From: a virus
Strand: one strand, 5' to 3'
IMG/VR virus record: IMGVR_UViG_3300034104_003485
Coordinates: 1-52,444 of that record
DNA length: 52,444 nucleotides
The notes below the pieces were generated by a model, which saw only the letters and a list, made by a program, of their open reading frames with translations, ran no database searches and was not told where the DNA came from. The position numbers and the translations under genes were made by a program. Positions 1,749-22,888 of the stretch are shown piece by piece (position 1 is the first letter of the stretch; each line of letters starts with the position of its first letter).

Positions 1749-2555
1749 TTATAAAGATTTATTCCATACTGTATCAACAGGAGTAGGGGCACCAACACCA
1801 AACTTAGCTTTATGTGTTTCGGTTGTTAGAGCTACTCCAGTAAGTGGATTAACTTCTCCAAGAGGTGTCATCCATAGTCCAGGATCAGATCTACGTGCTA
1901 ATTCTTCTTCAGAACCAGGAACTGGAAATGTTCCAGGATTCTCATGTGAGAAAACAGAGAAGTTTGAGTAGCAATATCTTATTCCAGATTTTACTTCACG
2001 CACTCCATGTTCCCAAGGGTGTGTAGAACCGTGTATAACAAGATCTCCAGGCTTTGCAGCATATGTTAGGCAGTTTGGGTCAGTGTCATGGTCAATGAGT
2101 GTTGAACCGTCTTCTGCGCTGATATTTGGATAGTAGATCTCTCCACCTTCGTAATCGCCAAAGTAAACACAAACACCATATTCAATAATGCAGCATGTGT
2201 TCCATCTATCTGGTTGAGTAAGATCTTCTTCCATGTCTCTTCCAGGTGAATCTGAGTGAACAAACATTGTGTCGCCTGGGCGCATCGCTAGTAAAGATAA
2301 ATTTGGGTGAATGCAATGTTCAGGAGCTAGTAGCTCTGTAATCATGTCCCATACAGGGAATAACTCTGGAGTAAGCTTACTGCTTTTCTCTGAGTACCAA
2401 TTAATAGCAACTTCACCATTTTGAATTTTATAGTCTTCAAGTTCGTATGTGGCCATTTTGTCATTAATTGTTTTAACTAATTCTGCTGGTACAAAGTTTC
2501 TGTATACAAAAACGTTTGTACCGATTTGCTCTATATTAGGGTTATCTTTAAACAT
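1749..2555 (-). CDS. 2OG-Fe(II) oxygenase (prolyl hydroxylase-like), 268 aa
   Basis: This is a double-stranded beta-helix dioxygenase of the prolyl-4-hydroxylase type, which uses oxygen and 2-oxoglutarate to hydroxylate a substrate. The iron triad is visible as H100-x-D102 (VHSDSPG) and H183 (WEHGV), and R193 (SGIRYCYSNF) should bind 2-oxoglutarate. The strand YFGDYEGGEIYYP is the hallmark seen in all relatives in this window. A C-terminal tail of about 65 residues extends past the core. It is read leftward from a leaderless promoter, opposite to the tRNAs. It resembles the gene at 3966-4568 closely in layout, but that copy has lost the metal ligands. Substrate is unknown. Confidence 0.85.
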   Translation of the reverse strand: MFKDNPNIEQIGTNVFVYRNFVPAELVKTINDKMATYELEDYKIQNGEVAINWYSEKSSKLTPELFPVWDMITELLAPEHCIHPNLSLLAMRPGDTMFVHSDSPGRDMEEDLTQPDRWNTCCIIEYGVCVYFGDYEGGEIYYPNISAEDGSTLIDHDTDPNCLTYAAKPGDLVIHGSTHPWEHGVREVKSGIRYCYSNFSVFSHENPGTFPVPGSEEELARRSDPGLWMTPLGEVNPLTGVALTTETHKAKFGVGAPTPVDTVWNKSL

Positions 2556-2909: not shown

Positions 2910-3830
2910 ATGAAACCAATCATACTATCTAAAGACGTATTTCTATTTAAAAATGTGTTAAAGGACCCTCAAGCTGCCACCGCTTTTATTCGTAAAGAAA
3001 AAGAGATAAAGCAGGACAAGTGGTTTGGTCAATGGCAAGATTGGAGACCCTGGGGAGAATACGCAAAAGCATATCCAGCAGACGATGATTCATTTTTAAA
3101 TGACACAAGCGAAGGGGCTGAATTGCTAAAAGAGTGCCTAGATGTTTTTTGGGATATTCTTTCAGTTTACAAAAAAGATCATTTAAATAAAGAGTACTTT
3201 GATTCATTGGGTTTAAGCTATGACTTTCCAACTTCTTATGAAGAGCTAATTGCTAATAGAACTAGACCAAATGTATGGGATAGGTGGGGAATTGCAGATG
3301 TTGTAGTATTAGAGTCAACAGATACATCTGCAGAAAAAAATCTTTCAATGGAATATCATCAAGATAGAAGACCTTGGTTTGGCGGATCTCCGCATATTTT
3401 TAATTGCAATATTTATATAAACGATGATTACGAAGGCGGAGAAATAATATTTGCAGACCTAGAAACTGCAGAAAAAGCTGTTACGGTTTATGATGGCAAA
3501 GAACTTGAATATTTTTTGATTGATAGACCAATAGAGTATAAGATGGAAGCTGGAGACGCTTTAATATTTAGAACAGATCGTTTTCACGCAGTAAAGCCTG
3601 TAAAAGGAAATAAGTTTTATATAAGACAGTTTCTGTCTTCAGCATGGAGCAAGGATTTTGTAGATGCAAGAGACAGCATGGATCCAGAAGACTTTAAAGA
3701 GTTTCTTAAAGTAAAAGAAAAAGAAGGATTTGCGGCTAAAAAATTTGAAATGAGAGTATATGAAAATGAAAGCGAAATATCAAATGTTATGCCAGGACAA
3801 AATATTTGTGTTATTAAGCCAGGCCAATGA
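2910..3830 (+). CDS. 2OG-Fe(II) oxygenase, 306 aa
   Basis: This is a larger member of the prolyl hydroxylase-like family. The iron ligands are H150-x-D152 (EYHQDRRPW) and H226 (DRFHAV). K235 or nearby R239 (KGNKFYIRQF) stands where relatives bind 2-oxoglutarate. The core strand is YINDDYEGGEIIF. The first 130 residues form an extra Trp-rich helical region (WFGQWQDWRPWGEY) that could recognise a substrate; a similar Trp-rich segment is seen in the protein at 21505. A charged C-terminal tail follows the core. The stop overlaps the next small gene (ATGA). Substrate is unknown. Confidence 0.85.
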   Translation: MKPIILSKDVFLFKNVLKDPQAATAFIRKEKEIKQDKWFGQWQDWRPWGEYAKAYPADDDSFLNDTSEGAELLKECLDVFWDILSVYKKDHLNKEYFDSLGLSYDFPTSYEELIANRTRPNVWDRWGIADVVVLESTDTSAEKNLSMEYHQDRRPWFGGSPHIFNCNIYINDDYEGGEIIFADLETAEKAVTVYDGKELEYFLIDRPIEYKMEAGDALIFRTDRFHAVKPVKGNKFYIRQFLSSAWSKDFVDARDSMDPEDFKEFLKVKEKEGFAAKKFEMRVYENESEISNVMPGQNICVIKPGQ

Positions 3831-3973
3831 AAAATAAATTTTTTACAACTATATTATGCTTTTTAGCATCAATTGCTTCTGGATATGCTCTTTATCAATT
3901 GTTAAAAAGAATTGGTCTCGGAGACTCGTTTGACTTTAATTTATTTGAAGATATAGATTTAGAAAATGAGTAA
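3827..3973 (+). CDS. 48-aa membrane-anchored small protein
   Basis: The frame starts inside the stop of the preceding oxygenase (ATGA) and overlaps the next gene by 8 nt, which strongly suggests translational coupling. Residues 5-25 (FFTTILCFLASIASGYALYQL) are one hydrophobic membrane span. The C-terminus is acidic (FDFNLFEDIDLENE). No family is recognised. Its position between two oxygenase-family genes suggests it is part of the same unit, perhaps as a membrane tether. Confidence 0.6.
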   Translation: MKNKFFTTILCFLASIASGYALYQLLKRIGLGDSFDFNLFEDIDLENE

Positions 3974-4568
3974 AGATTTAATTAGATATTTAGATCCAAA
4001 ATTTAAAAATCATAAAGATGTAATTAAATTAGATGATGAAATATACCTTTATAAAAATTTCTTTAAAAAAGATTTAATAGATTTAATTTTGGAAGGGCTA
4101 GCTCCATTTGATTTAAATCAGTCAAAAAAAGAGCATTTTAATTATGAAGAAGGAGACATTTCACATTTATTTACTTATGGAAGAATATCTCATGATATTG
4201 GATTTTATTTATTAGGTTTTCATGATAATATAGTTAATTTGATAGCTCCAGAGTACTGGACAAATAAAATGAATTCTTTAATAAGAATGCTGCCAGGAGA
4301 TCTTCATGAGCCAACCTACACAAATTTTACTCCAGTAGAAGAAGTTGAAATAAAAATAGAATATAAAATATGTGCCTTTTTTGGAGACTTTACTGGAGGG
4401 GAAATTTATTTTCCAGACAGACAAATTGAGTATAAGCCAAATTCTGGTGATTTAATAATATTTTCATCTAATCCAGAGTATAGAAATGGTGTGAAAAAAA
4501 TCTTATCTGGAGTAAGATATTCATATATGGATTTTATGTACCAGTATCCAGGTTTATTTATTGCTTAA
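3966..4568 (+). CDS. Degenerate 2OG-oxygenase fold lacking iron ligands, 200 aa
   Basis: The fold signature is clear: RMLPGD, then CAFFGDFTGGEIYFP, then SGVRYSYMDF. It aligns with the protein at 1749-2555. At the aligned positions the HxD motif is replaced by T117-x-T119 and the distal His by N174 (YRNGV). Only R184, the 2-oxoglutarate contact, remains. Unless the true ligands are displaced (H114 is nearby but has no Asp partner), this protein cannot hold iron in the usual way. It may be a pseudoenzyme with a binding or scaffolding role, or a decaying copy. The intact reading frame argues for retention. Confidence 0.75.
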   Translation: MSKDLIRYLDPKFKNHKDVIKLDDEIYLYKNFFKKDLIDLILEGLAPFDLNQSKKEHFNYEEGDISHLFTYGRISHDIGFYLLGFHDNIVNLIAPEYWTNKMNSLIRMLPGDLHEPTYTNFTPVEEVEIKIEYKICAFFGDFTGGEIYFPDRQIEYKPNSGDLIIFSSNPEYRNGVKKILSGVRYSYMDFMYQYPGLFIA

Positions 4569-12259: not shown

Positions 12260-13735
12260 ATGGCAACAGTAAATAAGAACTTTAGAATTAAACATGGACT
12301 CATTGTTGAGGGTGCTACAGGTACAATCAATGGTCAAAATATACTTACAGAGACAGGCGGAGATTCCTATATCCTCAACCTTGTCGGTGGAGCCACTCTT
12401 GTAAAATCGGTAGAGGCTACACAGCTTGAAGTAAGCGGCGCTGGAAAGTTATCTATAAAGTCTGGAGTATTTGATCCAGCAGGTTCAGCAGCATCGGCAC
12501 AAACAGCAGCAGAAGCAACTGCATCAGCAGACGCAACATCAAAGGCTAACGCAGCCCAAGCAGCAGCAGAAGCAACTGCATCAGCAGATGCAACATCAAA
12601 GGCTAACGCAGCCCAAGCAGCAGCAGAAGCAACTGCATCAGCAGATGCAACATCAAAGGCTAACGCAGCCCAAGCAGCAGCAGAAGCAACAGCAGCAGCA
12701 GATGCAACATCAAAGGCTAACGCAGCCCAAGCAGCAGCAGAAGCAACAGCATCAGCAGATGCAACATCAAAGGCTAACGCAGCCCAAGCAGCAGCAGAAG
12801 CAACTGCATCAGCAGATGCAACATCAAAGGCTAACGCAGCCCAAGCAGCAGCAGAAGCAACAGCAGCAGCAGCGCTTACATCTGCAATTTCAACAGAGGT
12901 TTCAAATAGAAACACAGCAATTTCAACAGCTGTAGATAATCTTGTTGATGGTGCACCAGCACTTCTTAACACATTAAATGAATTAGCAGCAGCAATAAAT
13001 GACGACGCTAACTATACAACAACTATTACAACAGCTCTTGGAACAAAAGCCCCATTAGCTTCTCCAGATTTAACTGGAACACCAACTGCACCAACTGCAG
13101 CCGCAAATACAAATACAACACAGATTGCAACTACAGCATTTGCTAAGGCAGAAGCAGACGCAGCTCAAGCAGCAGCAGAAGCAACAGCAGCAGCAGATGC
13201 AACATCAAAGGCTAACGCAGCCCAAGCAGCAGCAGAAGCAACTGCATCAGCAGATGCAACATCAAAGGCTAACGCAGCCCAAGCAGCAGCAGAAGCAACT
13301 GCATCAGCAGATGCAACATCAAAGGCTAACGCAGCCCAAGCAGCAGCAGAAGCAACTGCAGCAACAGCTAATACAGCTCAGCAAGCAGGAACAACAGCAT
13401 TCACAGCATTAAATGTTAACGATCAGGCTAAGCAAATTGCAGCTTCATCTTCTGGAACAGCAACAGTTGCTGGAACAGCTTATGAGTGGGCAAAGGCTGA
13501 CTATCGTTCAGGTAAGTTCCTTGTTAAAATTGACAATGCAACTCACAATGAAATATCAGAAATTCTAGTAACACTAGATTCATCAGACAACGTGGCAGTT
13601 ACAGAATATGCAATTGTCGGAACTAATGGATCAAGAGGAACTATTACAGCTGATGTATCAGGTTCAAACGTAAGAATACGAGTTACTCCAGTAAATGACT
13701 CAACAGTTAAAGTATCTGGAACACTGATTAAATAA
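12260..13735 (+). CDS. Ala/Thr/Ser-rich repeat tail fibre, 491 aa
   Basis: The N-terminus MATVNKNFRIKHGLIVEG is a fibre module repeated in the gene at 13804. Two arrays of a 19-residue unit (AAQAAAEATASADATSKAN) follow. Between them lie [18 protein letters not shown] and a PTAPTAAANTNTTQIATTAFA segment, both common in fibres. The C-terminus is a beta domain (GKFLVKIDNATHNEISEILVT). The Ala-rich units should form a long, thin coiled coil whose length can change by recombination without a frame shift. GGAG lies 8 nt before the ATG. A terminator-like hairpin follows the stop. Confidence 0.8.
   Translation: MATVNKNFRIKHGLIVEGATGTINGQNILTETGGDSYILNLVGGATLVKSVEATQLEVSGAGKLSIKSGVFDPAGSAASAQTAAEATASADATSKANAAQAAAEATASADATSKANAAQAAAEATASADATSKANAAQAAAEATAAADATSKANAAQAAAEATASADATSKANAAQAAAEATASADATSKANAAQAAAEATAAAALTSAISTEVSNRNTAISTAVDNLVDGAPALLNTLNELAAAINDDANYTTTITTALGTKAPLASPDLTGTPTAPTAAANTNTTQIATTAFAKAEADAAQAAAEATAAADATSKANAAQAAAEATASADATSKANAAQAAAEATASADATSKANAAQAAAEATAATANTAQQAGTTAFTALNVNDQAKQIAASSSGTATVAGTAYEWAKADYRSGKFLVKIDNATHNEISEILVTLDSSDNVAVTEYAIVGTNGSRGTITADVSGSNVRIRVTPVNDSTVKVSGTLIK
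12494..12892 (+). repeat. 57-bp tandem repeat array, first block
   Basis: Six nearly identical 57-bp units (19 codons) run from 12494 to 12835, and a diverged seventh ends at 12892. Units differ mainly at a single codon (TCA or GCA) and at synonymous ACT/ACA. High identity at the DNA level implies recent expansion or gene conversion. Confidence 0.9.
13160..13387 (+). repeat. 57-bp tandem repeat array, second block
   Basis: Three full units of the same 57-bp repeat run from 13160 to 13330, with a diverged fourth to about 13387. It is separated from the first block by about 270 bp of non-repeat fibre sequence in the same gene. Confidence 0.88.
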
Positions 13736-16338: not shown

Positions 16339-17160
16339 ATGACAAAAAATATAGGTAGAAAATCTTCAGCCCAAGATAACTTTATTGGACCAAATCCAGT
16401 TACAGGACTTTCTGCAACTGATGTAGGAACAGGTCGGCCTTATGATAACGGCGCTGTAACACTTTACTGGACAGCTCCAGTTGGTTCTAATACTCCAACT
16501 GGATACTATGTTAAAGATGGTGGAACAACTGTTGCCACAGTAGCTTTCGGAACAAATACCGCAACTATTCAAAACTTAGCAACATCAGCAGTTAAGACAT
16601 ATACTGTTACTGCATATGATCTTTATAAAGAATCTACAGCCGTATCAGCAAATTCAGTAACAGTAACAACTGTTCCAGACAGACCAATATCAGTTTCAGC
16701 AACATCTACTGTTAACGCACAAGATGTACTTTCATGGCAAGAGCCAAGAAATGGTGGAAAGGCAATAACATCTCGCAGATGGACGTCTTCTGATAGTAAA
16801 AATGGTTCTGGAACAAGCCCACAAACAATTGCACAAGAAGCTGGAACAGCACAGACATATACAGTTTTCCTAAGCAATGCAAACGGAGAAGGACTAGGAC
16901 AAACTTCTAGCTCAGTAACAACATTCTTTAGCCCACCTTCTTTCTTTAGTCCACCAGCGTTCTTCGCACCTCCAGGGTTCTTCGCACCTCCAGGGTTCTT
17001 CGCACCTCCAGGGTTCTTCGCACCTCCAGGGTTCTTCGCACCTCCAGGGTTCTTTAGTCCGCCAGCGTTCTTCGCACCTCCAGGGTTCTTCGCACCTCCA
17101 GGGTTCTTTAGTCCGCCAGCGTTCTTCGGCCCTCCAGGATTTACAGTTTATTCTATTTAA
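16339..17160 (+). CDS. Two-FN3 tail protein with FF-x-PP-x repeat tail, 273 aa
   Basis: Residues about 18-110 and 111-193 look like two fibronectin type III domains (VTLYWTAPVGSNTPTGYYV and DVLSWQEPRNGGKAITSRRW). The C-terminus is a run of twelve six-residue units FF-(A/S/G)-PP-(G/A/S), ending FTVYSI. FN3 domains are common on phage virions and bind surfaces weakly. The repeat tail is hydrophobic and stiff, with Pro-Pro-Gly in eight units, so it could be a prolyl hydroxylase substrate or a stacking or assembly element. AGGAG precedes the ATG. The next genes downstream include five prolyl hydroxylase-like enzymes. Confidence 0.75.
   Translation: MTKNIGRKSSAQDNFIGPNPVTGLSATDVGTGRPYDNGAVTLYWTAPVGSNTPTGYYVKDGGTTVATVAFGTNTATIQNLATSAVKTYTVTAYDLYKESTAVSANSVTVTTVPDRPISVSATSTVNAQDVLSWQEPRNGGKAITSRRWTSSDSKNGSGTSPQTIAQEAGTAQTYTVFLSNANGEGLGQTSSSVTTFFSPPSFFSPPAFFAPPGFFAPPGFFAPPGFFAPPGFFAPPGFFSPPAFFAPPGFFAPPGFFSPPAFFGPPGFTVYSI
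16924..17142 (+). repeat. Twelve tandem 18-bp units encoding FFxPPx
   Basis: Twelve in-frame 18-bp units run from 16924 to 17139, followed by TTT. Most read TTCTTCGCACCTCCAGGG; TTCTTTAGTCCGCCAGCG-type units are interspersed in the order S,S,A,A,A,A,A,S,A,A,S,G at the third residue. Identity between units is very high, implying recent expansion. Confidence 0.92.
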
Positions 17161-17163
17161 AGA

Positions 17164-17213
17164 TTGACCACTCTCCCCATGCTATGTTATAATATTAATC
17201 TAGCGTGGGGAGA
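17164..17213 (+). promoter_or_regulatory. Promoter inside a terminator-like hairpin that carries the RBS
   Basis: TTGACC (17164-17169), 18 nt, and TATAAT (17188-17193, preceded by TGT) form a good promoter. TCTCCCCATGCTA (17172-17184) pairs with TAGCGTGGGGAGA (17201-17213), 13 bp with one G-T. The -10 box sits in the 16-nt loop and the right arm contains GGGGAG, the only ribosome site for the TTG start at 17219. Read-through RNA would hide the site; RNA starting near 17200 lacks the left arm and exposes it. Confidence 0.65.
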
Positions 17214-17218
17214 TTTCT

Positions 17219-17941
17219 TTGAATAAAATAATATTTCACTCAAGCAATCTATACAACAATATTAATTTAAATTCTACACCATCTTTATCAAAAAAACATA
17301 TTCCATATTGGTTTTTAAACGCTAAAAGATATTTAGTAGATCCATTTTCAAATAATTTTATTATAAATGAGCAAGGCGGAAAAGAACTTTCATTTAAAGC
17401 ATGTCCAGCTTTAATGGATATATATGTATCTGGATATATGCTTACAACTCCATGCGACTTAGTTTTTTATAAAGAAAATAATTATATAAATGTAAAAACA
17501 GAAGAAGGCTTTGAAGATTTCTGTGCCAGAAGATCTGTAATGGATGATTTCACACCACCATTTGGATACAGTCGCATACCATTTCATTGGTACCCATCCT
17601 GGGCTCCAGAAGTGCCAGATGGTTACAGTGTACTTTATTTAAGTCCAGTCAATAGGTTTGATCTTCCATTTATAACAGTTGGAGGAATCATAGATAATGA
17701 TAAAATAAATACTCCAGGACTTATGCCATTTTTTATAAGAGAAGGCTTTATTGGCACAATCCCAGCTGGAACCCCATACATTCAGATAATTCCTTTTAAA
17801 AGAGATGAATGGGAGATGAGTAATAAAATGCATACTCAAGAAGAAATAGATAGTAGAAGGAAAAAATCAAAATCTCTTTATAGAATTAAGTCTGGCGGCG
17901 GATATAAAAAGCACACTTGGTCTAAAAAGGTATTTAATTAA
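17219..17941 (+). CDS. Conserved phage protein of unknown function, 240 aa
   Basis: This protein is a clear paralogue of the one at 19381: both share MNKI-x-FHS, the GGK-x-x-SFK-x-CPAL segment, FHWYP-x-WAP, and GT-P-x-GTPY-x-QIIPFKR. The start is TTG at 17219, aligned with the ATG of the paralogue. GTPYIQIIPFKRDEW and the overall pattern also recall the protein at 18690, which resembles the DUF6065 group. The fold is likely all-beta. The role is unknown; it is always next to 2OG oxygenases here, so it might act with them or on the same target. Confidence 0.75.
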   Translation: MNKIIFHSSNLYNNINLNSTPSLSKKHIPYWFLNAKRYLVDPFSNNFIINEQGGKELSFKACPALMDIYVSGYMLTTPCDLVFYKENNYINVKTEEGFEDFCARRSVMDDFTPPFGYSRIPFHWYPSWAPEVPDGYSVLYLSPVNRFDLPFITVGGIIDNDKINTPGLMPFFIREGFIGTIPAGTPYIQIIPFKRDEWEMSNKMHTQEEIDSRRKKSKSLYRIKSGGGYKKHTWSKKVFN

Positions 17942-17952
17942 CAATATATAAA

Positions 17953-17961
17953 TGCTATAAT
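17953..17961 (+). promoter_or_regulatory. Extended -10 box
   Basis: TGC-TATAAT (hexamer 17956-17961) stands about 50 nt before the ATG at 18013. That gene also has a TGAGG ribosome site, so this is a leadered promoter. There is no convincing -35. Confidence 0.55.
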
Positions 17962-18012
17962 GTAATCATAGATATATTAAGCATATATCAATACTAAAAA
18001 AATGAGGCTAAA

Positions 18013-18681
18013 ATGCTTGCAAATAAATTTGAATATCTTTATCCAGGAGTTATTGTTTATAGAGATGTTTTTACAAAAGAGTTAGATCTTATAAATAGGC
18101 TAGAAGGCATACTAGCAAATGAATCTTCAGACAATCAGTGGAAGCAGGCAACAACAGGTTATGCTACATTAGAAAAAAGCTACAGAGATTGCTATGACTT
18201 TAAAATTAAAAAGAATACAGATAGCCCAGATGGTAAAACTGAATCTAAGTTAATGTTAGAAAAAATATGGGAAGATGCAAAGGCCGTTCAGATAGCTCCA
18301 GTAGAACACTACAGAGCAGGATTTGGCTTAGCAGAGCTAAAGTACTGGGAAGCTTTTAATTTTATAAAGTACGGACCAGGACAACATTTTGATGTTCATT
18401 CAGATCATGGGTATTCTTACATATCAACACTTTCATCAGTCGGATACATTAATGATGATTACGAAGGCGGAGAGCTTTTCTTTGATAAAATTAATTTAAA
18501 GATTAAGCCAAGAGCTGGAGATTTATATCTTTTTCCATCTTCATATATTTACTCTCACGCAGCTATGCCAGTAATTTCTGGAATGAAATATTCAATAGTT
18601 ACAATGTTAGATTACCATGAAGCACCACATACCCCTAGATACCGTGAAATTGAAAAAGAATTTTCAGAGGGGTTTCTGTAA
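18013..18681 (+). CDS. 2OG-Fe(II) oxygenase, 222 aa
   Basis: Prolyl hydroxylase-like dioxygenase. Iron ligands are H129-x-D131 (FDVHSDHG) and H182 (YSHAAM). K192 (SGMKYSIVTM) takes the place of the Arg that salt-bridges 2-oxoglutarate in many relatives; Lys is also known in this role. The core strand is YINDDYEGGELFF, followed by PRAGDLYLFPSS. The first 110 residues are helical and would shape the substrate cleft. It is the first of five oxygenases after the PPG-repeat protein and lies between two DUF6065-like genes. Confidence 0.87.
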   Translation: MLANKFEYLYPGVIVYRDVFTKELDLINRLEGILANESSDNQWKQATTGYATLEKSYRDCYDFKIKKNTDSPDGKTESKLMLEKIWEDAKAVQIAPVEHYRAGFGLAELKYWEAFNFIKYGPGQHFDVHSDHGYSYISTLSSVGYINDDYEGGELFFDKINLKIKPRAGDLYLFPSSYIYSHAAMPVISGMKYSIVTMLDYHEAPHTPRYREIEKEFSEGFL

Positions 18682-18689
18682 AATAAATT

Positions 18690-19388
18690 GTGTATAAATT
18701 TTTAGCATATAAAAACTTAAGCCAATCAGGAAATATATCTCAGCTTCAGGTAAAAAGAGATTGGATGGAAGACACTTATGATAGACATGCATATAATTGC
18801 TTTCCAGTTAACTTAACTAATTCTTTAGGTTGGGGTATATCTTTTCCAGAGGATATTGTTTTTGTCTGGGATGGAATATCTGACACAAGCCCAGATCATG
18901 TTAAAATTTTATCAGGAGAAAAATGGTGTCATCCATTTAGATCAAATGCCACAATAAGCTTTAAAACAGGCATTACTTTAAAAACAGATGATGACATTAC
19001 CACCTTAGTTATGCCAGTTCCAAATCAATTTATTGATGGCGCACAATGCTTTACAACATTAATATCGACATCATTTTTTATAGGAGAGATTCAGGTTGCA
19101 TGGAGAATAACCAAGCCTAATGTTCCAATAACTATACCAGCTGGAACACCAGTATGCTCCATAATACCGCTTGGTCTTGCAAATTTAAATAACTCTGAGC
19201 TATTAGTTTTTGATTCATCTAAAATGCCTCCATTAGATTTTAATGGTGAAGAATACGGTATAGAGTCTCAAAGGATTACAAATTCAGGTTCATGGAGTCA
19301 CTTTTATAGAAATGCAACAGACCATAAAGGTAATTCACTAGGCAAGCATGAGGTAAAAACATTAAGGTTAAAAACAATAAATGAATAA
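18690..19388 (+). CDS. DUF6065-like protein, 232 aa
   Basis: It starts with GTG at 18690, and TAAAAT lies 5 nt before it. The segment DRHAYNCFPVNLTNSLGWGI followed by SFPEDIVFVWDG is, as I recall it, characteristic of DUF6065 proteins of phages and bacteria. Later IPAGTPVCSIIPLGL parallels GTPYIQIIPFKR of the proteins at 17219 and 19381, suggesting one superfamily. No catalytic motif is recognised. The stop overlaps the start of the next gene. Function unknown; tight placement among oxygenases suggests a shared pathway. Confidence 0.65.
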   Translation: MYKFLAYKNLSQSGNISQLQVKRDWMEDTYDRHAYNCFPVNLTNSLGWGISFPEDIVFVWDGISDTSPDHVKILSGEKWCHPFRSNATISFKTGITLKTDDDITTLVMPVPNQFIDGAQCFTTLISTSFFIGEIQVAWRITKPNVPITIPAGTPVCSIIPLGLANLNNSELLVFDSSKMPPLDFNGEEYGIESQRITNSGSWSHFYRNATDHKGNSLGKHEVKTLRLKTINE

Positions 19389-20103
19389 AATAACATTTCA
19401 TTCAAACAGGCTATACAATAGGGTAAAAGAAAGCTTTAGACCAATACCTTCTAAATCTTATGTTCCAAAATGGTATTCATCTGCAGATAGATATGAAAAA
19501 ATTCCTGGAACAGAAGACTATTATCTTAACCCAGAAGGTGGCAAGATGTTTTCTTTCAAGGGTTGCCCAGCTTTGCTAGATGTGTTTACTTCTGGCTATC
19601 TGTATGTTACTCCATGTGATATTACTTTTTACAAAGAGGGTGGAATTACAAAAGTTAAAACAGAACAAGGTTTTGAAGATTTTTGTGCATCAAGACCAGC
19701 CACCCCTAACCTTGAAGTTCCAAAAGGATATCAAAAAGAACATTTTCATTGGTATCCAAATTGGGCACCCAGTTTGCCAGAAGGATATAGCGCTCTATAT
19801 GTAAGCCCATTAAATAGATTTGAATTACCCTTCATTACCACTGCTGGTATAATAGATAATGACAAGATGGATACTCCAGGGCTGATGCCTTTCTTTTTAA
19901 GAGATGATTTTGTGGGTACAATACCAGTTGGTACACCCTACGTTCAAATAATTCCCTTTAAAAGAGAAGACTGGGAGATGGACTTTAAATTTTATGAATA
20001 TAATGAGATAATAGAAAGACACGAGTACCAGGCAAAAAAATTTAGGACAAAAAACGGCGGGGCATACAAAGAGCATGTCTGGTCAAAAAAGAAATATAAA
20101 TAA
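19381..20103 (+). CDS. Paralogue of the unknown protein at 17219, 240 aa
   Basis: It is the same length as its paralogue and alignable along its whole length without large gaps (FSFKGCPALLDVFTSGYL versus LSFKACPALMDIYVSGYM; HFHWYPNWAPSLPEGYSALY versus PFHWYPSWAPEVPDGYSVLY). Conserved Trp, Tyr, Pro and the GTPYVQIIPFKRE strand suggest a shared beta fold and binding site. The start overlaps the preceding stop by 8 nt, giving coupled translation. The two copies have diverged well beyond recent duplication, so each is probably maintained by selection. Confidence 0.75.
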   Translation: MNKITFHSNRLYNRVKESFRPIPSKSYVPKWYSSADRYEKIPGTEDYYLNPEGGKMFSFKGCPALLDVFTSGYLYVTPCDITFYKEGGITKVKTEQGFEDFCASRPATPNLEVPKGYQKEHFHWYPNWAPSLPEGYSALYVSPLNRFELPFITTAGIIDNDKMDTPGLMPFFLRDDFVGTIPVGTPYVQIIPFKREDWEMDFKFYEYNEIIERHEYQAKKFRTKNGGAYKEHVWSKKKYK

Positions 20104-20111
20104 GGGGTAAA

Positions 20112-20798
20112 ATGCAAAATTTAAATAATGAAGTTTCAGAGAGAGCTAGGTTTCAAAGAAAATCAATAACTCCTTCAGGTCATTTTGGAGACTCAAAAGA
20201 CAATATCGTAGAGTTGGAAAACTTTATGACAGAAGAAGAGCAGACCTACCTATTAGACTTTGCAAAACAAAATAAGTATTGGGATATCACTGAGTCACAG
20301 TGGAATGAAAACGGAACAATTATTTATGACCACAGAGTTTGGGAAGATAGAGTAGCAACACTCCATACTCTTCAAAAATCTGATCCAGTTGTTATTGAAA
20401 TTTTAAATAAAGTTATCAACAGATTAAGACCAGTAATTGAAGAGTTTTTTAATGTTGAGGTAGAGCCGACATATCCAGCAATTGTTAGATGGCCAGTAGG
20501 CACAATGCAATTCCCACACGCAGATAAAGAGCTTCACGAAGGCCCTGACGCTGGCACCGAAAACGAGTTCCCTTGGTATGATATAGGTACAGTTTTTTAT
20601 TTAAACGACGACTATGTTGGCGGAGAACTTTATTTCCCAAAACAAAATATAATATTCAAAACAAAATCTCGTGGAGCTTATTTTTTCCCAGGAGACATGA
20701 ACTATATTCATGGTGTTAATCAAGTAAAAGAAGGGACCAGGTATACTTGTCCATTTTTCTGGACAGTAACCAGCTTAGAAAGAAATAAAAATGAGTAA
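20112..20798 (+). CDS. 2OG-Fe(II) oxygenase, 228 aa
   Basis: Iron ligands are H136-x-D138 (FPHADKE) and H200 (YIHGV); R210 (EGTRYTCPFFW) should bind 2-oxoglutarate. The core reads FYLNDDYVGGELYFP. Of the set, this one looks most like classical prolyl-4-hydroxylase domains, which have GTR-x-x-x-x-x-FW at the end. AGGGG precedes the ATG, and the stop overlaps the next oxygenase (ATGA region). Substrate unknown; candidates are tail-fibre prolines nearby. Confidence 0.88.
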   Translation: MQNLNNEVSERARFQRKSITPSGHFGDSKDNIVELENFMTEEEQTYLLDFAKQNKYWDITESQWNENGTIIYDHRVWEDRVATLHTLQKSDPVVIEILNKVINRLRPVIEEFFNVEVEPTYPAIVRWPVGTMQFPHADKELHEGPDAGTENEFPWYDIGTVFYLNDDYVGGELYFPKQNIIFKTKSRGAYFFPGDMNYIHGVNQVKEGTRYTCPFFWTVTSLERNKNE

Positions 20799-21504
20799 CG
20801 TAATTAAGCATAAAGAAGACACTTTTATTGTATTAGACTTTATATCTGAAGAAGAATGTCAAAAGATGATAAAGTACCTAGAGTTTTTGGCATCTTCCTA
20901 TAAATTACAATGGAATCAAATTTCTTTTTATGAATCTTATGCTATGGGATTTTGGAAAGTTGACGCAGATCTAATTAAATTTGGTCTACCAGAAGATTAC
21001 TTTACTAAATTAAAAGAAAAAATTAAATCCAAGTCGGAAGAGCTTTTTGGTACAGATCTAACTGAAATTAGTTATCATGCTCAAAAATGGACAACTGGGG
21101 CTTTCGCAAGTTTTCATTCAGACAATACTGATGAGCATGGAAATCCAACAGCATTCATAAGAAGTAAGTTCGCAGCATTTCTTTATTTAAATGAAGATTT
21201 TGAAGGCGGCCTATTAAATTGGAAAAACTATGACATAACTGTTACCCCAAAGATAGGTATGCTTGCCGTATTTGACGGTGGTTTTGGAAATGAACATGAA
21301 GTCACTACAGTAAAATCTGGAACCAGATATACGATTGGGTCATTTTGGGATAGAGCAGATTCTGTATACACCGAAGAGCAGCAACAGTCTTGGGCCGACG
21401 AACTTGCCGTAGTAAGAGCGGAACAAGAAGAGATGTATAAGGAATGGAAAGAGGATAGGGAAAAAGGAATTATCCCTGTATACAAAGGAAAAGGTGAGCA
21501 ATAA
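20791..21504 (+). CDS. 2OG-Fe(II) oxygenase, 237 aa
   Basis: Ligands are H109-x-D111 (SFHSDNTDEHG) and H169 (GNEHEV), with R179 (SGTRYTIGSFW) for 2-oxoglutarate. The core strand FLYLNEDFEGGLLNW differs from the others by replacing the second Glu after GG with Leu, which could reshape the active-site mouth. A charged helical tail (QQQSWADELAVVRAEQEEMY) follows the core. It overlaps the preceding oxygenase by 8 nt and the next begins right after its stop, so these enzymes are made together. Confidence 0.87.
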   Translation: MSNVIKHKEDTFIVLDFISEEECQKMIKYLEFLASSYKLQWNQISFYESYAMGFWKVDADLIKFGLPEDYFTKLKEKIKSKSEELFGTDLTEISYHAQKWTTGAFASFHSDNTDEHGNPTAFIRSKFAAFLYLNEDFEGGLLNWKNYDITVTPKIGMLAVFDGGFGNEHEVTTVKSGTRYTIGSFWDRADSVYTEEQQQSWADELAVVRAEQEEMYKEWKEDREKGIIPVYKGKGEQ

Positions 21505-22302
21505 ATGGAAATTAATATGCAATACACAGAACTTTATCCAAGGGTAGATGTTTATACTGGTTTATTGCCAGATGCAGATGAACTTTATAGCATTATGAAA
21601 GAATCTGAAGAAACTGCAAATGGAAAGTATTACCTTAGAACATGGGATCAATGGTCTGTTTTTGGAACTTATGCTCAGCAAAAACATGATGAGAATGAGC
21701 CAAGAGAGTTTGGCGAAAGATATGATAGAGAGAAGCATCTATCAGATAGAGTGTATGAGGCATACAATTTAGCAATTCGTGATTATATAGCCAGACATAA
21801 CGTAGTTCTTCCAGAAGGATCTGAGCTTATGACTTCATCATTTTCAAAGTACAAGGATGACGTTGATAACATGAAAAATAACATGGCAATGCAATATCAT
21901 ACAGATTTTATAATTAGCGAAAGAGATATGCCAGGAAGAAAATTCCTTTTAACTTGCACAACGTATATTAATGATGACTACGATGGTGGAGATATAGAAT
22001 TTTTTATTGATGGTAAGTCATATAATCATAAGCCAAAAGCTGGAGACATTCTAGTATTTCCATCTCAAGAGCCTTATTTCCATGGAGTTAAAACCATTAG
22101 AAATGGATACAAATATTTTATTAGAAACTTTATAACCTATTCTTACGAAGGCCATGAAGAATGGTTAAGAAATCAAAGGCATTACGGTGCTTATAGATGG
22201 ATGGAAATGGAAAAAGAAAGAATTGAAAGAGAAAGTAAAGATAATATGCTTTACATTTTAGACGGAAAAGCAGTAAGTCATGATGAATACCAAAATCGTT
22301 GA
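21505..22302 (+). CDS. 2OG-Fe(II) oxygenase, 265 aa
   Basis: Ligands are H132-x-D134 (QYHTDFI) and H193 (YFHGV). K203 (NGYKYFIRNF) is the likely 2-oxoglutarate contact. The core reads YINDDYDGGDIEFF. The N-terminal 125 residues include a Trp-rich RTWDQWSVFGTY, similar in style to the protein at 2910, making these two a sub-group. The ATG at 21505 is 6 nt after GGTGAG; an ATG at 21517 is possible. A positively and negatively charged C-terminal tail follows. The next gene starts 23 nt inside its end. Confidence 0.87.
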   Translation: MEINMQYTELYPRVDVYTGLLPDADELYSIMKESEETANGKYYLRTWDQWSVFGTYAQQKHDENEPREFGERYDREKHLSDRVYEAYNLAIRDYIARHNVVLPEGSELMTSSFSKYKDDVDNMKNNMAMQYHTDFIISERDMPGRKFLLTCTTYINDDYDGGDIEFFIDGKSYNHKPKAGDILVFPSQEPYFHGVKTIRNGYKYFIRNFITYSYEGHEEWLRNQRHYGAYRWMEMEKERIERESKDNMLYILDGKAVSHDEYQNR

Positions 22303-22888
22303 AAAAAATATAATTCATTATACTAATTTAATTCCAAATCCTTCTGCATTTATTAAAATGATAGAAGACATAGATCCGCTTTTAAGTGAGTCTTCTCAGG
22401 TATCAAAATGGAAAGACTGGCATTCAAGCACCAGAGAAGAAGTAATTTTTGGTAAACACAAAGATGCTATGTTTACTTCTGCAAACAATACAACCGTAGC
22501 AGACATTAAAGCTCAGTTAATATGCAAAACCATTAAAGATGTGGTAACCCAGTGCGCTAAAGACTATGAAGAAAAAACTGGAATAAAAATTGGTTTTTTG
22601 CCAGATCAATTTACCATTAAAAAGTATCACGAAGAAGCATATATGGGCCCTCACGTAGATTATGAGGGCGAAGGTAGGGCAGATTTTTATCCAACCATAT
22701 CAATGGTTCTTTATTTAAATGATGACTATGAGGGCGGAGAAGTTAATTTTATAGAGCAAGATGTTTCCATAGAACCAGAGGCTGGCAGCCTAATAGTTTT
22801 CCCTTCTCATAAGCCATACTATCATGATCCTAGGCCAGTAACTTCTGGAATAAAGTATATGGTTCCTTTGTTCTGGTTTGATAATTAG
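22280..22888 (+). CDS. 2OG-Fe(II) oxygenase, 202 aa
   Basis: Ligands are H125-x-D127 (GPHVDYEG) and H182 (YYHDPRPV), with K192 (SGIKYMVPLFWF) as probable 2-oxoglutarate contact. The core is LYLNDDYEGGEVNF. It is the last and most compact of the run of four overlapping oxygenase genes and ends at the core without an extra tail. No good ribosome site is seen; the 23-nt overlap with the preceding gene implies coupled re-initiation. A leaderless promoter starts the next gene immediately after its stop. Confidence 0.86.
   Translation: MMNTKIVEKNIIHYTNLIPNPSAFIKMIEDIDPLLSESSQVSKWKDWHSSTREEVIFGKHKDAMFTSANNTTVADIKAQLICKTIKDVVTQCAKDYEEKTGIKIGFLPDQFTIKKYHEEAYMGPHVDYEGEGRADFYPTISMVLYLNDDYEGGEVNFIEQDVSIEPEAGSLIVFPSHKPYYHDPRPVTSGIKYMVPLFWFDN

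Follow-up and report, generated by a model that had tools for sequence, protein, structure and literature searches.

An FF-x-PP-x repeat array and the operon of prolyl hydroxylase-like oxygenases behind it: a probable hydroxylated-adhesin module of aquatic tailed phages

The chlorella virus PBCV-1 encodes a prolyl 4-hydroxylase (P4H; PDB code 5c5t) which, according to the passages of PMC9301287 and PMC7019647 that cite Eriksson et al. (1999), acts sequence-specifically on proline-containing peptides. It is among the closest described counterparts of the locus analysed here, which lies in the 52,444-nucleotide IMG/VR record IMGVR_UViG_3300034104_003485 (called the window throughout, at its full length) and consists of a gene for a putative tail adhesin ending in an array of FF-x-PP-x repeats, with genes for five 2-oxoglutarate (2OG)-Fe(II) oxygenases, ox1 to ox5, behind it. 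The PBCV-1 enzyme is likewise virus-encoded, is similar in sequence to ox1 and ox5 and matches ox1 in fold, but PBCV-1 is a eukaryotic algal virus with a single small P4H, whereas the present module belongs to bacteriophages and sets a multi-enzyme operon beside one array gene. The closest solved bacterial relatives of ox1, the P4Hs of Bacillus anthracis and Pseudomonas putida, have the HxD...H and lysine motif in common with it; unlike the operon found here they are single chromosomal enzymes, their solved entries include a complex with EF-Tu, and we know of no array partner for them. In animals, several types of procollagen hydroxylase, including prolyl 3-hydroxylase 1 (P3H1), the best solved relative of ox2, ox3 and ox4, and LH3, a relative of ox1, act on one repetitive proline-rich protein, as is proposed here for the array. 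Collagen has glycine at every third residue, whereas the FFxPPx array does not and has an invariant FF pair.

The 2OG oxygenases of cyanophages (phrog_61; S-H9-1, S-SCSM1) belong to the same superfamily and also come from aquatic phages, but identity is only 26-41%, in some cases across the whole protein and in others across a part of it, and FFxPPx was not found in the six cyanophage-type 2OG records searched. The functions of phage 2OG oxygenases have been described as uninvestigated (PMC9602691), and in a structural survey many of them resembled human EGLN3 (PMC12774648). The open-access literature yielded no description of the FFxPPx array, of its pairing with a hydroxylase operon or of a role for DUF6065, a family encoded in the same operon, and the strings FFAPPG, FFSPPG, FFGPPG and FFAPPS occurred in no paper of the literature searched. 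The widespread module is thus apparently undescribed, as an earlier note on this DNA had supposed. In INPHARED, ox2 gave only distant cyanophage and marine matches and DUF6065 none, so that the module was not found in any cultured phage; a tblastn search with the array protein also gave no match, which says little since the filter masks repeats.

The array and the gene cassette behind it are arranged as follows.

16339-17160, plus strand: array protein, 273 residues, with an FN3-like N-terminal part, a C-terminal FFxPPx array and the last residues GFTVYSI
16924-17139, plus strand: FF-x-PP-x array of 12 units, eight of them FFxPPG (translation and TRF)
17219-17941, plus strand: phrog_7084 paralogue 1, DUF6065-related (PHROG match 7e-30; profile link to DUF6065)
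18013-18681, plus strand: ox1, P4H-like 2OG-Fe(II) oxygenase of the cassette core (Pfam 1e-12; H129, D131, H182 and K192 invariant; P4H relatives)
18690-19388, plus strand: DUF6065 protein, second core component (Pfam 89.6 bits against a cut-off of 26.6; predicted dUTPase-like beta-clip fold)
19381-20103, plus strand: phrog_7084 paralogue 2 (PHROG match 1e-31)
20112-20798, plus strand: ox2, 2OG oxygenase (phrog_61, 3e-14; nearest solved relative P3H1)
20791-21504, plus strand: ox3, 2OG oxygenase (Pfam; nearest solved relative P3H1)
21505-22302, plus strand: ox4, 2OG oxygenase (Pfam; family alignment)
22280-22888, plus strand: ox5, 2OG oxygenase (Pfam; relatives a PKHD-type hydroxylase, B. anthracis P4H and PBCV-1 P4H)

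Several cassette genes overlap and the run is therefore operon-like, extending 5.75 kb from the end of the array (17139) to the final stop (22888). The five oxygenases within 5.8 kb reported in the earlier note are all present; the three DUF6065/phrog_7084 genes in the run were missing from its list. The 12 units, eight of them with Pro-Pro-Gly, are likewise as it described: unit starts fall at 16924, 16942 and so on to 17122, with a period of 18 nt in the translation, and TRF independently detects an 18/54-nt tandem array at 16942-17138. As for its designation of the product as an FN3 tail protein, the window protein falls below the Pfam fn3 threshold and has no match, but homologues score as fn3 (L010 and L048 above the cut-off, L026 below). 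Genes upstream of the array match tail-fibre PHROGs.

Arrays in other phages were located with a back-translated two-unit FFxPPx pattern in IMG/VR, and the counts that follow are among the matches listed. In 94 arrays comprising 1197 units, the unit is defined by F1, F2, P4 and P5. Position 3 holds a small residue (A 544, S 417, G 179); about half of the units have Gly at position 6, and the rest have S, A, R, L, V, N or further residues there. Neighbouring units often differ by synonymous changes; the complete lack of amino-acid change at FF/PP in this codon-level comparison is partly a matter of construction, and we rely instead on the in-register count, in which FF.PP is broken in one of 1110 units. 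Since the pattern is common in IMG/VR phages, occurs in none of 120 random loci and is so rarely broken, the array is not a product of chance. The same cassette follows PPG-free arrays (PPS, PPL, PPV), and its core follows FFPP and HFPP arrays; the constant is therefore FF/PP rather than PPG, which gives no support to PPG as the rule of recognition. A collagen-like (Gly-X-Y)n triple helix was considered and is ruled out by the periodicity: the unit FF-[A/S/G]-PP-x repeats every six residues and offers one place for Gly, taken in about half of all units, and the existence of FFPP variants with a period of four excludes a strict triplet. The three-residue spacing would place the small residues on one face of a polyproline-II helix.

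The association of array and enzymes is close to absolute. Whole-record searches detected PF13640 oxygenases in each of the 36 array records that are 25 kb or longer, nearly all with 3-15 such genes, as against 9 of 25 portal relatives and 1 of 29 random 14-mer contigs. Among the 25 portal relatives and 25 random records serving as controls, the array pattern was confined to four portal relatives, those with 5-8 oxygenases; none of the five portal relatives with a single oxygenase had an array. Around 113 array open reading frames (ORFs), oxygenases occur at 0.5-1.2 per kb over the 6 kb downstream, with none in the first 2 kb upstream and one in the first 5 kb, and 303 of 316 lie on the strand of the array. 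The order array, ox1, DUF6065, phrog_7084, ox2, ox3/ox4, ox5 is conserved. Where 6 kb or more follows a distinct array (69 cases), the cassette is present in 64; ox1 is directly followed by DUF6065 in 63 of these 64 cassettes and ox2 directly follows phrog_7084 or DUF6065 in 58. Loci picked by DUF6065 have a 2OG gene just upstream in 76 of 76 cases and an array in 45 of 46, the exception (L172) starting inside the cassette. Of the ox2-type loci, 51 span 12 kb or more; 40 of these carry FFxPPx and seven FFPP/HFPP-type arrays, three are cut by the contig end and one (L200) is a true exception. The search of related phages proposed in the earlier note thus returned a strong co-occurrence, and oxygenases of this type are not routinely carried without repeats. 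In cellular genomes, a three-unit pattern gave 11 matches in 84,980 species, several of them other tandem repeats and none beside a 2OG gene, and the module is therefore treated as viral.

Array and cassette also come and go together in phages related by their portal. Two further genes lie beyond ox5.

22903: LamG-like gene, next after ox5 (Pfam 1.9e-13)
25068: portal gene, 60% identical to the portal of Streptomyces phage StarPlatinum

Among 38 loci selected by their portal, seven have an array with 5-6 oxygenases and 31 have neither (Fisher 8e-8), with the LamG gene in place in all 38. The portals of L205 and L206 are 94-95% identical to that of the window, and L206 has array and cassette whereas L205 has neither. 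In a tree of 70 distinct portals, some rows of which were taken from samples selected by array, ox2 or DUF6065, 44 have both and 26 neither, and array and cassette each switch at least eight times, always together; supported branches provide five independent pairs, all concordant, too few for a sign test to reach 0.05. The portal family is present in 24 of the 36 array records and missing from several large ones, placing the module in phages of at least two backbones. The likeness of the portal to those of Streptomyces phages makes actinobacterial hosts probable. In L208 and L211, glycine-rich (GGX) proteins occupy the slot upstream of LamG and portal and there is no array; the slot therefore looks like an adhesin exchange site.

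All five oxygenases have the HxD motif, a distal His 53-64 residues further on and Lys/Arg at +10, so that the complete H-x-D...H sets read earlier are confirmed and joined by a basic 2OG-binding residue; triad and basic residue are invariant across homologues in all five subfamily alignments. Against the 27-bit cut-off of 2OG-FeII_Oxy_3 (PF13640), ox1 scores 49.2, ox3 35.1, ox4 37.7 and ox5 47.2; ox2, at 23.8, falls below it, yet matches phrog_61 (3e-14), and the motif is invariant across its family. When all array-near oxygenases are clustered, the five of the window represent the five largest subfamilies. Profile comparisons with PDB sequences relate ox1 to B. anthracis P4H (3itq/5hv0; 4.5e-8), LH3 and PBCV-1 P4H (6.7e-4), ox2 to P3H1 (1.8e-7) and also B. 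anthracis P4H, ox3 to P3H1 (4e-11), ox4 to P3H1 (0.0036) and ox5 first to PKHD (1.2e-7), then to B. anthracis P4H (2.7e-7) and PBCV-1 P4H (3.5e-6). The fold search, for which ox1 was the only oxygenase used, ranked prolyl hydroxylases first for its model (pLDDT 91.5), namely P. putida P4H (4iw3), an algal P4H with (Ser-Pro)5, PHD2 and PBCV-1 P4H. Separately, plain 2OG oxygenases here match phrog_2297, phrog_274 and phrog_3531, families annotated as DNA endonuclease or ferrochelatase. Cyanophage records annotate the same 2OG genes as ferrochelatase, which is likely to be a misannotation that has propagated.

The conserved partner of array and oxygenases is DUF6065 (PF19541), which exceeds its cut-off in 35 of the 36 array records and in 5 of 50 controls, these five being the four array-bearing portal relatives and G058, with 2OG and DUF6065 genes at the very start of its contig. 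The model of the window's member at 18690-19388 (pLDDT 86) matches a dUTPase-like core (E 1.5e-4) at low coverage, with a TM-score of 0.39 by query length. The proteins encoded at 17219 and 19381 have no Pfam match and are related to DUF6065 by profile (Prob 91); they belong to phrog_7084, also present in HF2-type haloarchaeal viruses. Our guess is that DUF6065 serves as a chaperone or substrate-presenting component. The phrog_7084 family is not exclusive to the module, occurring away from 2OG genes in L208 (1365-2087, adjoining a possible glycosyltransferase), in L259, in L276 and in the tail region of HF2 (L428), which, unlike the window, has no 2OG gene annotated beside it.

We propose, with a probability of roughly 0.7 and on the strength of sequence comparisons, that aquatic tailed phages possess a swappable receptor-binding module in which P4H/P3H-type enzymes hydroxylate the FF-x-PP-x array of the neighbouring tail adhesin. 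The adhesin would display the low-complexity array, and the operon directly behind it would supply about five such 2OG-Fe(II) hydroxylases and one or more DUF6065-type proteins. Hydroxylation, most likely of prolines, would take place in the infected cell before or during virion assembly and may stiffen or hydrate an otherwise very hydrophobic Phe/Pro rod, and/or create the face that makes contact with the host. The enzymes probably divide positions or chemistries among themselves, with ox1 resembling P4H and ox2 and ox3 resembling P3H. The core of the earlier idea of a self-hydroxylated adhesin repeat is thus retained, on grounds of co-occurrence, position, operon order and enzyme affinity, and its PPG rule found no support; that the array is the substrate, that proline is the residue and that fibre mechanics or adsorption are affected is what we infer. 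The final 120 or so residues of the window's array protein contain no Lys or Arg, and routine tryptic proteomics of virions could therefore miss the modification.

Several points weigh against this proposal. Co-inheritance as a cassette is linkage and does not make the array the substrate, and the prolyl hydroxylase matches are favoured by what the PDB contains. The array-based samples were chosen for their arrays, a bias avoided only by the portal-, ox2- and DUF6065-based samples, and four portals with oxygenases and no array were kept out of the tree because their stretches seem to begin inside the cassette. L200 is a true locus with oxygenases and no array, four viral arrays (L038, L113, L096, L110) have no cassette nearby in the stretches fetched, and distant 2OG genes occur in cyanophages and Rhizobium phages that lack FFxPPx.

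Hydroxylation of the array mainly off proline, at the Phe pairs or position 6, or at different residues for each enzyme, is an unlikely variant, even though FF is as invariant as PP and five enzymes for a six-residue unit are many if proline alone is modified. The Gly fraction at position 6 is higher with ox4 (0.62 versus 0.37) and ox5 (0.65 versus 0.38; p ~0.003 each, uncorrected for relatedness), a weak link, confounded by relatedness, that is the only one found between enzyme subfamilies and repeat residues; against it, position 6 varies freely while the core cassette is unchanged, and prolyl hydroxylases make up most of the nearest solved relatives of ox1, ox2, ox3 and ox5. To a similarly small degree we would credit a cassette that merely rides with the receptor-binding slot and acts on other tail proteins or on host surface molecules, for instance as a superinfection block or to build a decoration. 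Some cassettes do contain extra enzymes, and cassette-free portal relatives hold other genes in the slot (glycine-rich proteins and, in L205, a radical-SAM-like CxxxCxxC protein), but the array is the shared part of otherwise diverse cassette-bearing genes, and altered arrays (FFPP, HFPP) retain the same core enzymes.

The oxygenases might instead be auxiliary metabolic genes tuning host 2-oxoglutarate or nitrogen metabolism, as proposed for cyanophages (PMC9602691). Such genes are common in aquatic phages, S-SCSM1 having 24 (PMC9602691), but this account, which we regard as very improbable, leaves unexplained the adjacency, orientation and co-switching with the array, as well as five conserved subfamilies with different N-terminal regions. 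PPG is a strong ribosome-stalling motif. A PPG-rich array acting as an EF-P-dependent pausing element, with unrelated enzymes downstream, was nevertheless rejected and is scarcely credible, as it does not account for the enzyme linkage and PPG-free arrays (PPL, PPV, FFPP) retain the cassette.

Array gene and cassette are separated by a predicted structure.

17172-17213, plus strand: strong hairpin (z -7.1; -31.2 kcal/mol over the segment 17150-17225)

It has a 13-bp perfect stem plus an inner helix, encloses a TATAAT-like box and is a possible attenuator or terminator; as an attenuator it could set the ratio of substrate to enzyme. The array genes are diverse, with N-termini with or without FN3 and C-termini that are Hint-like, S74 or neither. 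Behind about 69 of 123 distinct arrays (L006-L124 and related ORFs) lies a Hint/intein-like domain, C[IL]xxDTxVxTxxGxxxAKDIxVGDxV ..., in many cases with its end close to HN, which suggests autoprocessing of the adhesin; Intein_splicing (Pfam) matches L010 weakly, at 0.0012. A tail-fibre gene upstream of the array contains 57-bp tandem repeats (AAAEATASADATSKANAAQ), with an identical unit in the blocks 12500-12872 and 13158-13367. Three more divergent 2OG-oxygenase-like genes surround a tRNA pair at 1752-2555 (minus strand), 2910-3827 (plus) and 3966-4565 (plus), with local profile E values of 7e-20, 7e-26 and 2e-17. In the cultured Synechococcus phage S-SCSM1 (L430, 213879-215144), the short tail fibre SSCSM1_245 has Pro/Arg-rich [FY]RxP hexads, a different repeat from FFxPPx though likewise flanked by two groups of 2OG genes; in S-SCSM2R (L435), 2OG oxygenase genes lie beside a family 25 glycosyltransferase and other sugar genes, a neighbourhood that recalls the hydroxylation and subsequent glycosylation of collagen.

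The module may belong to a general class of hydroxylated rods (FFxPPx, FFPP/HFPP), served by a five-enzyme operon with a DUF6065 helper and exchanged as a unit against other adhesins, and related designs such as the S-SCSM1 hexads may explain many 2OG genes of aquatic phages, an extension for which we consider the odds about even. It would make the phage rods the bacteriophage equivalent of extracellular proteins rich in hydroxyproline. Few unexplained genes of aquatic phages are as common as those for 2OG-Fe(II) oxygenases, and the module offers an adjacent, specific and testable candidate substrate for them, within a type of repeat-based adhesin for which no earlier description was found. 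If the proposal is correct, it would give phage 2OG oxygenases their first concrete job, and host recognition by phages would gain a step of peptidyl hydroxylation.

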